Position numbers and translations under genes: made by a program
Shown here: positions 35,427 through 45,210 of the stretch, piece after piece
How positions within the stretch are numbered: position 1 is the first letter of the stretch
How the letters are laid out: each line of letters starts with the position of its first letter
Source of the DNA: Halomarina rubra
GTDB taxonomy: Archaea; Halobacteriota; Halobacteria; Halobacteriales; Haloarculaceae
Length of the DNA stretch: 64,000 bases
Direction of reading: 5' to 3'
Assembly: GCF_023699475.1 (NCBI RefSeq)
Contig: NZ_JALXFV010000005.1
Span: 124,001-188,000 of the forward strand
The notes under the pieces: generated by a model
Databases searched by the model: none
Told to the model about the DNA's origin: nothing
What the model saw: only the letters and a program-made list of their open reading frames with translations

Positions 35427-36257
35427 TCAGAGCGAGAGCGCGTCGGGCGCGGGCGGCATGTGGCGTTTGTGCTCGCTCGTCGCGTACAGTTCGTCGACGC
35501 GGTCGATCACCGACTCGTCGACGTCCAGCGTGCTCGCCGTCGCGGCCGTCGAGAGGGGGCCGTCGACGTGGAGGACGAGCACCGCGTCGAGCAGGTCGTA
35601 GCTCAGCCCCATCTCCTCCTCGTCGGTCTGGCCGACCCACATCTCGGCGCTCGGGGGCTTCTCGACGAGGTCCTCGGGGACGCCGACGTGGTCGGCGAGT
35701 TGGCGAACCTGGCGCTTGTAGAGGTTGCCGATGGGGTTGCAGTCGACCGCCTGGTCGCCGTACTTCGTGTAGTAGCCCGTCAGCGTCTCCGAGCGGTTGC
35801 CCGTCCCGAGGACGATGCGCGACTCTGCGTTGGCGACGAAGTAGTTGAGCACCCCCCGCGTGCGGACCCGGACGTTTCCGAGGGCCATCCGGTGGTCCTC
35901 GCCTGCGGGGTAGGCGTCGACGAACGCGTCGACGATGGGTTCGATGTCGACGACGTCGTAGTCGATACCCAGCATCTCGGCCACTCGCTCGGCGTCGCTC
36001 ATGTTCCCCTCGGTGTTGACGTCGCTGGGCATCACGAGGCCGTGGACCGCCTCCGCCCCCAGCGCCTCGACGGCGAGGTGGGCGGTCAGCGTCGAGTCGA
36101 TACCTCCCGACAGGCCGATGACCGCACCGTCGGCCCCCGCGTCGTCGACCACGCTCCTGACGAACGCCGTGATGTGCTCGCGGTGGGCCTCCAGTTCCGA
36201 CTCGGAGAGCGTGAGGTCGACGGGCAGGTCCTTCGGTCGGGCGACGGCGTCACTCAT
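35427..36257 (-). CDS. nadE: NAD+ synthase, ammonia-dependent type
   Basis: A 276-residue N-type ATP pyrophosphatase making NAD from nicotinate adenine dinucleotide. The PP-loop GLSGGIDSTLTAHLAVEALG, the NRSETLTGYYTKYGDQAVDCNPIGNL-type region (seen as TGNRSETLTGYYTKYGD) and PPSAEMWVGQTDEEEMG are conserved. There is no glutaminase domain, so it uses free ammonia. It converges with the double hydrolase. Confidence 0.95.
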   Translation of the reverse strand: MSDAVARPKDLPVDLTLSESELEAHREHITAFVRSVVDDAGADGAVIGLSGGIDSTLTAHLAVEALGAEAVHGLVMPSDVNTEGNMSDAERVAEMLGIDYDVVDIEPIVDAFVDAYPAGEDHRMALGNVRVRTRGVLNYFVANAESRIVLGTGNRSETLTGYYTKYGDQAVDCNPIGNLYKRQVRQLADHVGVPEDLVEKPPSAEMWVGQTDEEEMGLSYDLLDAVLVLHVDGPLSTAATASTLDVDESVIDRVDELYATSEHKRHMPPAPDALSL

Positions 36258-36446
36258 GGTCGTATCGAGGCGTTCGACCGACTAATAGCTGCCCTGTCAC
36301 GCGATATTTCCGACCGTTCGTCCATCGAGAGTGGGTACCTCGACCCGAACTGAACGACGGGGTTCCGACCGGCACGACTCCTCGGCGTCGCGATGAGACG
36401 CTACGTTCAAGTGGGGTGATGCAGAACAACCAGTGCTGACAGAACC

Positions 36447-36541
36447 GAGACCGTTGGCGAGCGGTCCCGAAGGGACGCGAGTCTCGGTGTGAGCCGCGCG
36501 GGACCGAAGGTCCCGCTGGAAACCGGCGACGCAGTCGCCGG
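36447..36541 (+). other. Cluster of perfect hairpins just upstream of tRNA-Gly
   Basis: Three stems lie in 95 bases: GTCCC/GGGAC with a GAA loop (36466-36478), enclosed by CCGAGAC/GTCTCGG (36447-36453 with 36481-36487); GCGGGACC/GGTCCCGC with a GAA loop (36498-36516); and CCGGCGAC/GTCGCCGG with a GCA loop (36523-36541). The last ends 11 bases before the tRNA. It may be an RNA processing leader, a separate small RNA, or selfish palindromic DNA. No reading frame with good codon use covers it. Confidence 0.5.
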
Positions 36542-36552
36542 TGACGAAGGGA

Positions 36553-36623
36553 GCACCGTTGGTCCAGTGGTAGGACATTGGCTTCCCAAGCCAATAGCCC
36601 GGGTTCAATTCCCGGACGGTGCA
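36553..36623 (+). tRNA. tRNA-Gly (anticodon CCC)
   Basis: A perfect cloverleaf: acceptor GCACCGT with ACGGTGC (seven Watson-Crick pairs), D-arm GGTCCAGTGGTAGGAC, anticodon stem TTGGC/GCCAA with loop TTCCCAA (anticodon CCC, reading GGG), T-arm CCGGGTTCAATTCCCGG and discriminator A. Length 71 as usual for glycine; no intron, no encoded CCA. Its 3' end is repeated twice downstream. Confidence 0.97.
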
Positions 36624-36712
36624 TTTCTGTCCGAACGGCAGTGAGGACGAAATCAGTAGGTGGGAATTGAAGTAGACGAGACGCACGCAGCGAAGCGAGC
36701 ACGTCTCGGCGT

Positions 36713-36737
36713 GGTTCAATTCCCGGACGGTGCATTT
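36713..36737 (+). repeat. Second copy of the tRNA-Gly 3' end (attachment-site-like)
   Basis: Twenty-five bases identical to 36602-36626, i.e. the T-loop, 3' acceptor strand, discriminator and three flanking T of tRNA-Gly, 111 bases downstream. No tRNA 5' half accompanies it. Integrases that target tRNA genes leave exactly such 3'-end duplications. It is followed by the hairpin TTTGC-GA-GTCGCG / CGCGAC-GA-GCAAA (36736-36763), whose opposed GA pairs would form tandem sheared mismatches. Confidence 0.8.
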
Positions 36738-36811
36738 TGCGAGTCGCGAACGCGACGAGCAAACGCTCTACTTCAGAATCGAACCAGCGAGCGACTGCAG
36801 GGAGCGAGTGG

Positions 36812-36836
36812 GGTTCGATTCCCCGACGGTGCATTC
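36812..36836 (+). repeat. Third, diverged copy of the tRNA-Gly 3' end
   Basis: Matches the first copy at 22 of 25 bases (three substitutions), 99 bases beyond the second. It too is followed at once by a hairpin, GCTCG/CGAGC with a GAA loop (36838-36850). The DNA between the copies is only about 75-90 bases, has no gene, and carries fragments such as an inverted TGAAGTAG/CTACTTCA pair. Confidence 0.75.
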
Positions 36837-36949
36837 TGCTCGGAACGAGCGTGAAGAGCGACCGCGCTACCGTGGGCGTCATTTCCGGCGACCCACTGCA
36901 GTCGAGTTCGGTTCGGAACCACTTTCACCGACAGGTCTGTGCGGAAGGC

Positions 36950-37534
36950 ATGGACGAGGTCTCCCGCACACTCGACGCCTACAGTACCGACGCCGACGCG
37001 TACGTCGAGAAGTACCGTTCGGAGTCCGTCGCCGCCCGCTACGGTGCGGCGTTCCGCGATGCCGTCGAGGGCCTCGACGGCGAACGGGTGCTGGACGTCG
37101 GCTGTGGCCCAGGCGCGGACGTCGAGACGTTTCTGAACACGGGGTACGACGTGACTGGCCTCGACCTCACACCCGGGTTCCTCCAGGCGGCGGCCGACCG
37201 CCACCCCGAGGCGTCGTTCGTCCACGGAGACATGCGGCGGTTGCCGTTCGACGAGGGGACGTTCGACGGACTCTGGAGTTCGGCGTCGTTCCTCCACGTC
37301 CCGCGGGCGGAGGCGGCGGGGACGCTCCGGGAGTTCCGTCGAGTCCTCCGTCCCGAGAGCGTCGTCTACCTCTCGGTGAAGTCGAGCGAGCGGGCCACTC
37401 ACGACGCGAACGACCGCCACTTCGTCTACTACCGTCCCGAAGAGGTGACCGACCTGTTCTCCGAGAACGGGTTCGAGACGACCCGTGTCGAGACCACCGA
37501 CAACTGGGTCGCGGTGCTCGCGGTACCGAACTGA
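36950..37534 (+). CDS. Class I SAM-dependent methyltransferase
   Basis: A 194-residue methyltransferase. Motif I is RVLDVGCGPGADVETFLNTG, the acidic motif II DVTGLDLTPGFLQAA, then FVHGDMRRLPFDEGTFDGLW and the helix LREFRRVLRPESVVYLSVK. The substrate is unknown (UbiE/BioC-like core). The frame runs upstream across the tRNA repeats, but conserved sequence begins at MDEVSRTLDAYSTDADAYVE, so 36950 is the start. Confidence 0.88.
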   Translation: MDEVSRTLDAYSTDADAYVEKYRSESVAARYGAAFRDAVEGLDGERVLDVGCGPGADVETFLNTGYDVTGLDLTPGFLQAAADRHPEASFVHGDMRRLPFDEGTFDGLWSSASFLHVPRAEAAGTLREFRRVLRPESVVYLSVKSSERATHDANDRHFVYYRPEEVTDLFSENGFETTRVETTDNWVAVLAVPN

Positions 37535-43383: not shown

Positions 43384-45210
43384 ATGAACCCACACGTCCA
43401 CCTCCAGCGGCCCGACGACTGGACCCGGGGGGCCGGAACCGCGGTGCGAGGGACCGCGTTCGTCGACGGCGAACGGTACGACGCGGACGCGCTCCACGAC
43501 CGTTTCAGCGCCGTCGACACCCGCGAGGCGTTCCGCGCGGCCGTCGAGGAACTGGAGGGCTTCTTCGCCGTCGTCCGCGTCGTCGAGGGGACGGTGTTCG
43601 CCGCGACCGACCACGTCCGGAGCATCCCGCTGTTCTACGCCCCCGGTGCCGACCTCGTCTCCGACAGCGCCCGTGCCCTCCGAACCCGTCTCGCGGACCC
43701 GGCCGTCGACACCGTCGCCGAAGCCGAGTACCTCTCGACGACGTACGTCACCGGCGGCGAGACGCTGTACCGAGACATCAGACAGCTCAGAGCAGGCGAA
43801 CTCCTCGCCTTCGAGACGAGCGCCGGCGGGACGCGACCGACGGCCCCCGCGGTGACCGAACGCCACTGGACGTACGCGCCGAGCACGACGGGTGCCGAAC
43901 CCGAGGCGACCCCGACCGACAGACTGGTCGCCCTCGACGACGCGCTCGTCGAGGCGTTCGAGCGCTGTCTCGCCGTCGCCGACGGGCGGCCCATCGCCGT
44001 CCCGCTGAGCGGCGGGTACGACTCGCGGCTGGTCGCGACGATGCTCGTGCGCCTCGGTGCCGAGGACGTCCGGACGTTCACCTACGGCCGAGCGGACTCG
44101 TCAGACGTCCGGGTCGCCCGCGACGTCGCCGCCGCCCTCGACCTCCCGTGGCGACACGTCGAGTACACCGCCGACGACTGGTACGACTGGTTCAACGGCC
44201 CCGACCGCGAGTCGTACTACGAACGCGCCGACGACTTCGACGCTATCCCGAACCTGAGCGCGCTGCCCGCCGTCGAGGAGCTGCTGGCCGATGGGTGGCT
44301 CCCCGCGGACAGCGTCGTCGTCCCCGGCCAGACCGTCGCCGAGATCGGTGGCCACCTGCCCGACCGCCTGCTCGACGGGAGCGCGACCGCCGCCGACCTC
44401 GTCGAGAGCGTGCTCGACCGCCACTACTGCCAGTTCGAGTGCGACGAGCGCCTCGACCGCACGTTCCGACTGCGCGTCTGGCAGAGCGTCGCGGACGTCT
44501 GTGACACGAGCGACCGCACGAGTGCCTACGCCGCGTGGGAGTGGCAAGAGCGCCAGGCGAAGTTCCTCTGTGGCGACGGCCGCATCTACGAACACGCCGG
44601 TCTCGACTGGTGGTTCCCGCTGTGGGACCCCACCGTCGCCGCGGCGTGGGGAGCGATTCCCGCCGCCGGCCGCGCCGAGAAACGTCGCTACACCGAACTC
44701 GTCGAGACGCTGTACGCCGACGTCGCCGAGGTGGACGCGTCGGCCGCCGCCCGGACGCAGGCGACCGACAGCCGAGTCACCGTCGCGACGCGTCGGCTCC
44801 GGTCGGCCGTCGCCGACTCGCCGCTGGCCGGGGTCGCACGACCGCTGTACCGACGCTTCCGCGGTCGGACCGCCAGCCGCGAGGACGGCCCACTGGCACA
44901 CTTCGGGATGCTCTCGGCGGCCCAGTTCGACCGCCTCTACGCCGCCGACCGGAGCCACCACGCGTTCCGTGCGCTAGAGGCGACCGGTCGGGTCTCGTTC
45001 GACCCCGCACACGAGGACGGGTGGCCCGGCGACGTACTGACGGTCGAGGGTCTGGAGGCGACCCGTCCGGACCGACCGGATCTACCGAACGAGGCCGACG
45101 ACGCCGAGACCACCGAGGCGGCCTACGACCCGCCGACGGTGACCGGCCAGGGTGACGGTCCCCACCCGACGCGCCTCGGAGGCTGGGCGGCCGAACCGAG
45201 CGACGACTGA
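43384..45210 (+). CDS. Asparagine synthase-like protein without the glutaminase cysteine
   Basis: A 608-residue protein with the two-part layout of AsnB. Residues 1-170 look like a class II glutamine amidotransferase domain (FFAVVRVVEGTVFAATDHVR, SIPLFYAPGADLVSDSARAL), but it begins MNPHVHLQ and has no cysteine after the initiator Met, so it cannot use glutamine in the normal way. Residues 190-470 are the synthetase: PLSGGYDSRLVATMLVR (PP-loop), FTYGRADSSDVRVARDVA and AKFLCGDGRIYEHAGLDWWF. The C-terminus (from 470) is variable and acidic. A TATACTAAA at 43350-43358 gives a very short leader. Relatives in archaea lie among surface-polysaccharide genes; the acceptor is unknown. Confidence 0.85.
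   Translation: MNPHVHLQRPDDWTRGAGTAVRGTAFVDGERYDADALHDRFSAVDTREAFRAAVEELEGFFAVVRVVEGTVFAATDHVRSIPLFYAPGADLVSDSARALRTRLADPAVDTVAEAEYLSTTYVTGGETLYRDIRQLRAGELLAFETSAGGTRPTAPAVTERHWTYAPSTTGAEPEATPTDRLVALDDALVEAFERCLAVADGRPIAVPLSGGYDSRLVATMLVRLGAEDVRTFTYGRADSSDVRVARDVAAALDLPWRHVEYTADDWYDWFNGPDRESYYERADDFDAIPNLSALPAVEELLADGWLPADSVVVPGQTVAEIGGHLPDRLLDGSATAADLVESVLDRHYCQFECDERLDRTFRLRVWQSVADVCDTSDRTSAYAAWEWQERQAKFLCGDGRIYEHAGLDWWFPLWDPTVAAAWGAIPAAGRAEKRRYTELVETLYADVAEVDASAAARTQATDSRVTVATRRLRSAVADSPLAGVARPLYRRFRGRTASREDGPLAHFGMLSAAQFDRLYAADRSHHAFRALEATGRVSFDPAHEDGWPGDVLTVEGLEATRPDRPDLPNEADDAETTEAAYDPPTVTGQGDGPHPTRLGGWAAEPSDD

Follow-up and report, generated by a model that had tools for sequence, protein, structure and literature searches.

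Why should the end of a tRNA gene stand three times in a row, when only one of the copies belongs to a complete gene? This question is raised by a locus of the haloarchaeon Halomarina rubra, analysed here within a window of 64,000 nucleotides (contig NZ_JALXFV010000005.1, positions 124,001 to 188,000), in which tRNA-Gly(CCC) is recognised both by ARAGORN and by Rfam RF00005 at 36553-36623 (+). An earlier note on this DNA had reported that the 25 bases at the end of this gene are met again 111 bases downstream as an exact copy and, 99 bases beyond that, at 22 of 25 positions, with no tRNA 5' half beside either extra copy and with a hairpin after each copy; all of this was borne out. The 25-mer in question is GGTTCAATTCCCGGACGGTGCATTT (36602-36626), composed of the final 22 nt of the gene and TTT; its extra copies stand at 36713 (spacing 111) and 36812 (spacing 99), and the hairpins are short. 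The repeated segment itself is the last 21 nt of the tRNA, GTTCAATTCCCGGACGGTGCA (36603-36623), which extends from G53 to N73 and whose downstream copies are referred to below as echoes.

The tRNA-Gly(CCC) locus and the anatomy of its units

Directly behind the tRNA, unit 1 begins with a hairpin detected by its fold (TTTCTGTCCGAACGGCAGTGAGGACGAAATC..., 36624-36661, +), and a similar hairpin is located directly 3' of tRNA-Gly(CCC) in the congeners G003, G004 and G006. It is followed by an inverted copy of the T-loop (GGGAATTGAA, 36662-36671, -), identified from the sequence and from class-wide tests of inverted copies, then by a variable loop of the GTAGACGAGACGC..GCACGTCTCGGCGTG class (36672-36713, +; DNA fold z = -4.0) and by direct echo 1 of G53-N73, identical to the tRNA at 21/21 positions (36714-36734, +). 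The class of this loop is also found behind other tRNAs, and at the Gly(CCC) locus of the genus the loop is seen in G000, the genome of the window, only. The same order of parts is repeated in unit 2, with a hairpin detected by fold (TTTTGCGAGTCGCGAACGCGACGAGCAAA..., 36735-36775, +), an inverted T-loop copy whose position 5 agrees with echo 2 and not with the tRNA (GAATCGAACC, 36776-36785, -), a variable loop similar to those of the congeners G002, G004 and G006 (AGCGAGCGACTGCAGGGAGCGAGTGGG, 36786-36812, +) and direct echo 2, identical at 19/21 positions (36813-36833, +). The unit 2 hairpin folds as DNA no better than chance, against z = -4.0 for that of unit 1. Another hairpin, apparent in sequence and fold, is positioned 3' of the last echo (36834-36867, +). 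Each cassette of the window thus measures 78-90 nt, to which the 21-nt echo is added. The inverted copies that precede the two echoes had escaped the earlier note, as had the genome-wide extent of an arrangement that is not local to tRNA-Gly(CCC).

The plan of the units was established on 257 tRNA loci, which gave 213 units at 31 tRNA species, a set enriched in Gly by the way in which loci were fetched. The order in each is the tRNA end or the previous echo, a hairpin in which a CGAACG..GTGAG loop is common, the inverted copy of T54-C63, a variable loop of ~25-60 nt that often forms a hairpin of its own, and the direct echo. The median distance between copies is 92 nt in this set, which is too short for genes. 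The edges of the echo are sharp at G52/53 and N73, and the identity between tRNA and echo falls abruptly beyond them (0.30 at -2; ~0.55 at +1, both sites being rich in T there). At least 7/10 positions of the inverted copy match in 171/179 units and at least 9/10 in 106/179 units, compared with 0/179 shuffles for the latter threshold. The inverted copy is specific to its host tRNA, fitting its own tRNA better than a swapped one in 142 units and worse in 17, and it follows the AATT and AAAT alleles of Gly(CCC) and Gly(TCC), respectively. The stem between inverted copy and echo is closed in the predicted fold of 134/134 units, all of them prefiltered for an inverted match of at least 8/10. By eye, hairpin 1 seemed to pair with the tRNA acceptor end, an idea that was rejected when own tRNAs were compared with swapped ones (6.19 vs 6.06 of 10). 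A second class of echoes is shorter and spans no more than the last ~14 nt of the tRNA (L229, L231, L202 and Halorubrum loci); in front of these, CTCCCTNCGGTCGT and an inverted copy of the acceptor end are often found.

The echo arrays are also a source of spurious ORFs, which is of concern to annotators. A long antisense ORF of the window (36250-36882, -) contains three RPGIEP/RRGIEP repeats, encoded by the tRNA end and its echoes when read in reverse orientation; antisense ORFs of this kind are artefacts that may be annotated as proteins. Likewise, the ORF at 36737-37534 (+) extends into the echo array, and the methyltransferase gene that it represents probably starts at the ATG at 36951. 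Elsewhere in the window, the tRNA-Pro(CGG) predicted by ARAGORN at 43878-43948 (-) is supported neither by the Rfam scan of the window nor by the genome-wide tRNA search, and is probably a false call.

Occurrence in the genome and across Halobacteria

A search of the whole 4.07-Mb genome for the Gly(CCC) core, allowing at most 2 mismatches, returned the three places described above, two more at tRNA-Gly(TCC), a gene whose own echo lies 100 nt downstream, and no others; with the pattern reversed, 0 matches were obtained. When the G53-N73 segment of each of the 42 scorable tRNA genes of G000 was sought within 320 nt downstream of that gene, with at least 17/21 identities counted as an echo, 22 of the 42 had an echo of their own 3' end. 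The association is tRNA-specific: upstream flanks gave 0, the ends of other tRNAs 1/336 and shuffled flanks 0 loci. What would be the remains of an insertion process are found at roughly every second tRNA gene of G000.

Eight sampled relatives of G000 had an echo of their own 3' end at 26/88 tRNAs, so that nine genomes, with tRNAs picked without regard to echoes, totalled 48/130 loci. The corresponding controls were 5/1018 for swapped ends and 2 upstream matches, both in G019. The frequency varies considerably between genomes, from 0/10 in G011 and 1/11 in both G021 and G149 to 6/14 in G006 and 5/10 in G147. These nine-genome fractions, for which the tRNAs outside G000 were those with the best covariance scores and from which G138 was left out as it had been picked for bearing an echo, are the sole figures free of echo-search bias; the other loci discussed here come from sampling and from echo searches. 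A strict two-copy Gly pattern was present in 20/146 genomes of the order and in 14/57 genera, with 0 in the controls. The same pattern, sought in 84,980 species genomes, gave 55 stretches, all from Halobacteria by title save one DPANN MAG and a few MAGs with no class in the title. The DPANN match (L203) is probably not the same element, the inverted copy being absent by eye. Of 53 tRNA loci sampled outside Halobacteria but within the phylum, none had an echo, and the best match reached 13/21. The echo pattern thus recurs across the class Halobacteria, at 31 tRNA species, and it would account for many of the tRNA-tail repeats in haloarchaeal genomes.

Origin of the units

The comparison of congeners exhibits occupied and empty sites with a boundary precisely at N73. 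At tRNA-Arg(CCG), G006 contains 104 nt more than G000, corresponding to one unit and its echo, and the sequence behind this echo is that found directly 3' of the tRNA in G000. The same pattern is observed at tRNA-Leu(CAA), with 105 nt extra in G006; the size of ~105 bp at both loci includes the 21-nt duplication. At Ser(GGA), the segment adjoining the tRNA in G000 matches the segment behind the first echo in G006. The distal unit of Val(TAC) is homologous in the two genomes and the tRNA-proximal hairpins differ, and the sole unit of G000 at Arg(TCG) corresponds to the middle of three in G006. Differences between species are mostly tRNA-proximal: pairs of loci of the same tRNA differed next to the tRNA in 43 cases and at an internal or distal position in 2, although these pairs are not independent, 36 of the 43 being Gly(CCC), and such comparisons of congeners with no outgroup do not separate gain from loss, so that individual cases could be losses. 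Distal echoes are also more decayed, the first echo being more faithful to the tRNA than the second at 24 loci, less faithful at 2 and equal at 21. In the Gly(CCC) arrays of Haloferax, one and the same unit is first in one species and third in another. The proposal of the earlier note that elements integrated repeatedly at the tRNA 3' end is favoured by these occupied and empty sites and by the decay of distal copies; the near-complete loss of elements that it also supposed is at variance with cassettes of standard size (median 92 nt), built on a fixed plan, at about half of the tRNA genes.

The loops are modules shared between tRNAs. A blind motif, GAGCGACCGTGGTTCRAATC, which joins the end of the loop to the start of the echo, was sought with at most 2 mismatches in six genomes and gave 32 matches in five of them, against 0 for the reversed pattern; all 30 of the 30 matches with a fetched locus sit 70-320 nt behind a tRNA gene, and these genes represent many tRNA species. 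The nearest relative of a loop was found at another tRNA in 50/54 cases. In Halorubrum salipaludis, one and the same cassette is found at both Gly(CCC) and Gly(TCC); at the base in which the two T-loops differ, the echo and the inverted copy change along with the tRNA end. In addition, hairpin 1 can be kept while the loop is exchanged, as in the Halorubrum loci L175 and L196 and at the Gly(CCC) locus of the genus of G000. The loop core AGTCGCAGCCCGCGCAG (AGTCGCAGCCCGC...GGACCGTCTTCC) is also a dispersed haloarchaeal palindrome, present in 56/195 genomes and far above its reversed-pattern control; 14 of the 52 places examined were adjacent to a tRNA and 38 were away from tRNAs. Genome-specific bursts of one loop type were considered and rejected, as the 18 same-genome neighbours, with 9.6 expected, were within the permutation range.

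Several further observations concern such modules. A dispersed palindrome, CGGAAGTCGCAGCCCGCGCAG...GAGCAGGACCGTCTTCCGGTGG, occurs in many copies (L309-L328, in G117, G127 and G065), often within a longer repeat with GGGACTCAAAGGGGCAG. At two loci of G006 (L271 and L278), the loop palindrome away from tRNAs is enclosed between short direct and inverted copies of ACTCAT and adjoins an apparent start codon, an arrangement reminiscent of the tRNA units. The hairpin TCTTCTGAACGGAACCA..CGAGGAGCCGA.AGGCTCCGAG is common to Gly(CCC) of Haloferax (L195, L199) and Gly(TCC) of G006 (L104), which belongs to another family; it had no match with at most 1 mismatch in 59 sampled genomes, and horizontal transfer is possible. 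In G001 (G001:C1, L233 and L006), an insert of 1.3 kb that contains HalOD1 and DUF7344 ORFs but no integrase separates tRNA-Gly(CCC) from an echo of 20/21 and is possibly a gene-bearing cassette.

We consider it an even call that the locus of the window represents a tRNA followed by two small gene-less cassettes, serially added at its 3' end by what would be recombination at the T-loop. The cassette would consist of hairpin, inverted T54-C63 and loop, with G53-N73 at both sides once it is inserted; the tRNA would be left intact, the echo would remain downstream, and the newest cassette would go in between the tRNA and the earlier one. The event could be a site-specific recombination at the conserved T-loop (GTTCRAATC), nearly alike in every tRNA, presumably carried out in trans, with a tyrosine recombinase as the natural candidate enzyme. 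It can be hypothesised that the inverted copy allows one DNA strand to fold into a stem that holds the T-loop site, as in attC, and we may guess that mismatch repair inside the folded hairpin fits the inverted copy to the new host tRNA. On the simplest reading, the element would be close to neutral, or selfish, and would exploit a safe site. Several features speak against cassettes: no recombinase was linked to the arrays, the T-loop core (GTTCRAA) departs from the integron core GTTRRRY, the customised direct and inverted copies at a new tRNA are not explained by simple site-specific recombination, and the exchange of loops with hairpin 1 kept needs crossovers at the inverted copy too. Duplication with no dedicated enzyme, by slippage, template switching and homologous unequal crossing-over at a hairpin-rich tRNA 3' flank, would copy G53-N73 and the T-loop in both senses and would expand and contract the arrays. 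The uA-uB-uA' pattern of Arg(TCG) in G006, which resembles the duplication of a dimer, the near identity of the first hairpins in four pairs of successive units and the occurrence of loop modules as dispersed palindromes away from tRNAs are consistent with such a process. However, the edges at G52/53 and N73 are constant at 31 tRNA species and the order of parts is fixed, foreign loops and presence/absence at the otherwise unoccupied Leu(CAA) and Arg(CCG) are hard to obtain locally, and the pattern is absent from the 53 tRNA loci of other classes. From the sequences compared, slippage and unequal crossing-over appear to be a poor account of the first insertion and of the foreign loops, and we regard them as a rather unlikely origin of the units; they probably act on existing arrays.

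Two other explanations are each given little credence. The main idea of the earlier note, that the echoes are the att scars left behind when ordinary viruses or plasmids integrated at tRNAs were lost, finds some grounds in the usual targeting of tRNA 3' ends, in the direct repeat of the tRNA 3' segment (echo G53-N73), in the tRNA repeats of 22 and 43 nt at the ends of haloarchaeal prophages of Haloquadratum (PMC3119063) and in an 8.1-kb stretch with an integrase gene directly 3' of the echo-bearing tRNA-Gly(TCC) of G011. However, the att copy of this element is longer, with its start in the anticodon arm, its distal copy has no visible inverted T-loop copy beside it, and a normal echo array lies behind the element, displaced 8.1 kb downstream. 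The position of this array indicates that it predates the element, and the three features together argue that echoes are not simple integrase scars, in a comparison that rests on one element as an example and not on a survey. Generic PF00589 genes were present in all 11 genomes searched, few of them near tRNAs, and no recombinase among them was linked to echo arrays. Apart from the 1.3-kb insert, which is itself devoid of an integrase, no integrase or recognisable element was found between copies. One unit motif had no match in viral contigs, and a viral origin was rejected since the 13 viral matches to the loop core were attributable to chance, none having the second half. Standard unit size at half of all tRNAs likewise weighs against scars, which makes this origin improbable. 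Equally improbable, in our estimation, is a functional RNA, namely a trailer that would regulate maturation or termination and would fold with the pre-tRNA, either the 5' acceptor strand or the inverted copy serving as partner of the echo. For the predicted transcript 36553-36880, the fold is better than that of shuffled sequences (z = -4.5), the long stem is formed in all 134 units, partly by selection through the filter, and proximal echoes reproduce the tRNA very closely. Conversely, hairpin and loop are freely exchanged, and Rfam gave no family above the gathering score over the units except tRNA itself. At the 32 informative sites where echo and tRNA differ, the inverted copy agrees with the tRNA in 23, with the echo in 7 and with neither in 2; compensatory upkeep of the stem, seen in 7/32 sites only, was therefore rejected. 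That the stem is not upheld, that many tRNAs are devoid of units and that the number and type of units differ between congeners argue against a required RNA, and the conserved RNA envisaged in the earlier note is thus disfavoured.

Relation to known systems

The insertion kind appears to be undescribed: echo units were not found described in the open literature searched, in which the only relevant items were prophage att repeats and integrons. If cassettes are inserted serially, these arrays lend themselves to the study of how tRNA genes come to serve as integration sites, and the process can be tested directly on congeners in which a site is filled in one and vacant in the other.

Several known systems share part of the plan. 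In CIME accretion, elements devoid of an integrase, which derive from ICEs and carry genes, are stacked at an att site. The likeness lies in the stacking of integrase-less elements between att copies at a tRNA, whereas the units described here are hairpins of ~100 nt, and no related full-length element was found in the few regions read. REP- and MITE-like palindromes resemble the units in that the loop core is also dispersed; they differ from the direct and inverted copies specific to the target and from the 21-nt duplication with fixed edges, and the unit motif, found behind tRNAs in 30/30 cases, is not dispersed independently of a target gene. Elements that integrate into tRNA genes by means of tyrosine integrases, such as the Haloquadratum prophages (PMC3119063), have in common with the units the tRNA 3' target, the intact tRNA and the downstream direct copy. 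These elements measure kilobases, encode an integrase and often have longer att repeats, whereas the units are gene-free, of ~100 nt, and add an inverted copy, a range of 31 tRNA species and serial arrays.

The likeness to integron cassettes (attC/attI, IntI), which are also known from archaea (PMC9668308), comprises arrays, a variable hairpin between inverted and direct core, anchor-proximal polarity, shuffling and mosaic loops. An attC site is defined by a RYYYAAC inverse core and a GTTRRRY core with a palindrome between them (PMC3053210). Integron cassettes are recombined as folded single strands. The architecture of the units agrees with this definition and their core, GTTCRAA, with C at position 4, does not; the anchor is the tRNA T-loop and not attI, and the units usually have no gene. 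The anchor-proximal growth of integron arrays has its counterpart in the 43 vs 2 pairs and in the 24 vs 2 loci for decay, in which gain and loss are unseparated. Because the core, GTTCRAA, departs from GTTRRRY, and because the generic PF00589 search linked no integron integrase (IntI) to the arrays, we do not file them as integrons; the study of archaeal integrons contains neither "Halobact" nor "tRNA" in its main text (PMC9668308). It is tentatively conceivable, with the balance of probability against it, that Halobacteria possess a class-wide integron-like system with tRNA genes as anchors, in which cassettes of ~100 nt would be folded as single strands and recombined at the T-loop, with customised direct and inverted copies and occasional genes. 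If this folded-hairpin mechanism were true, it would constitute a second, tRNA-anchored route to cassette arrays besides integrons, further from known kinds than the serial insertion at tRNA 3' ends that is the nearest known kind to the units described here.
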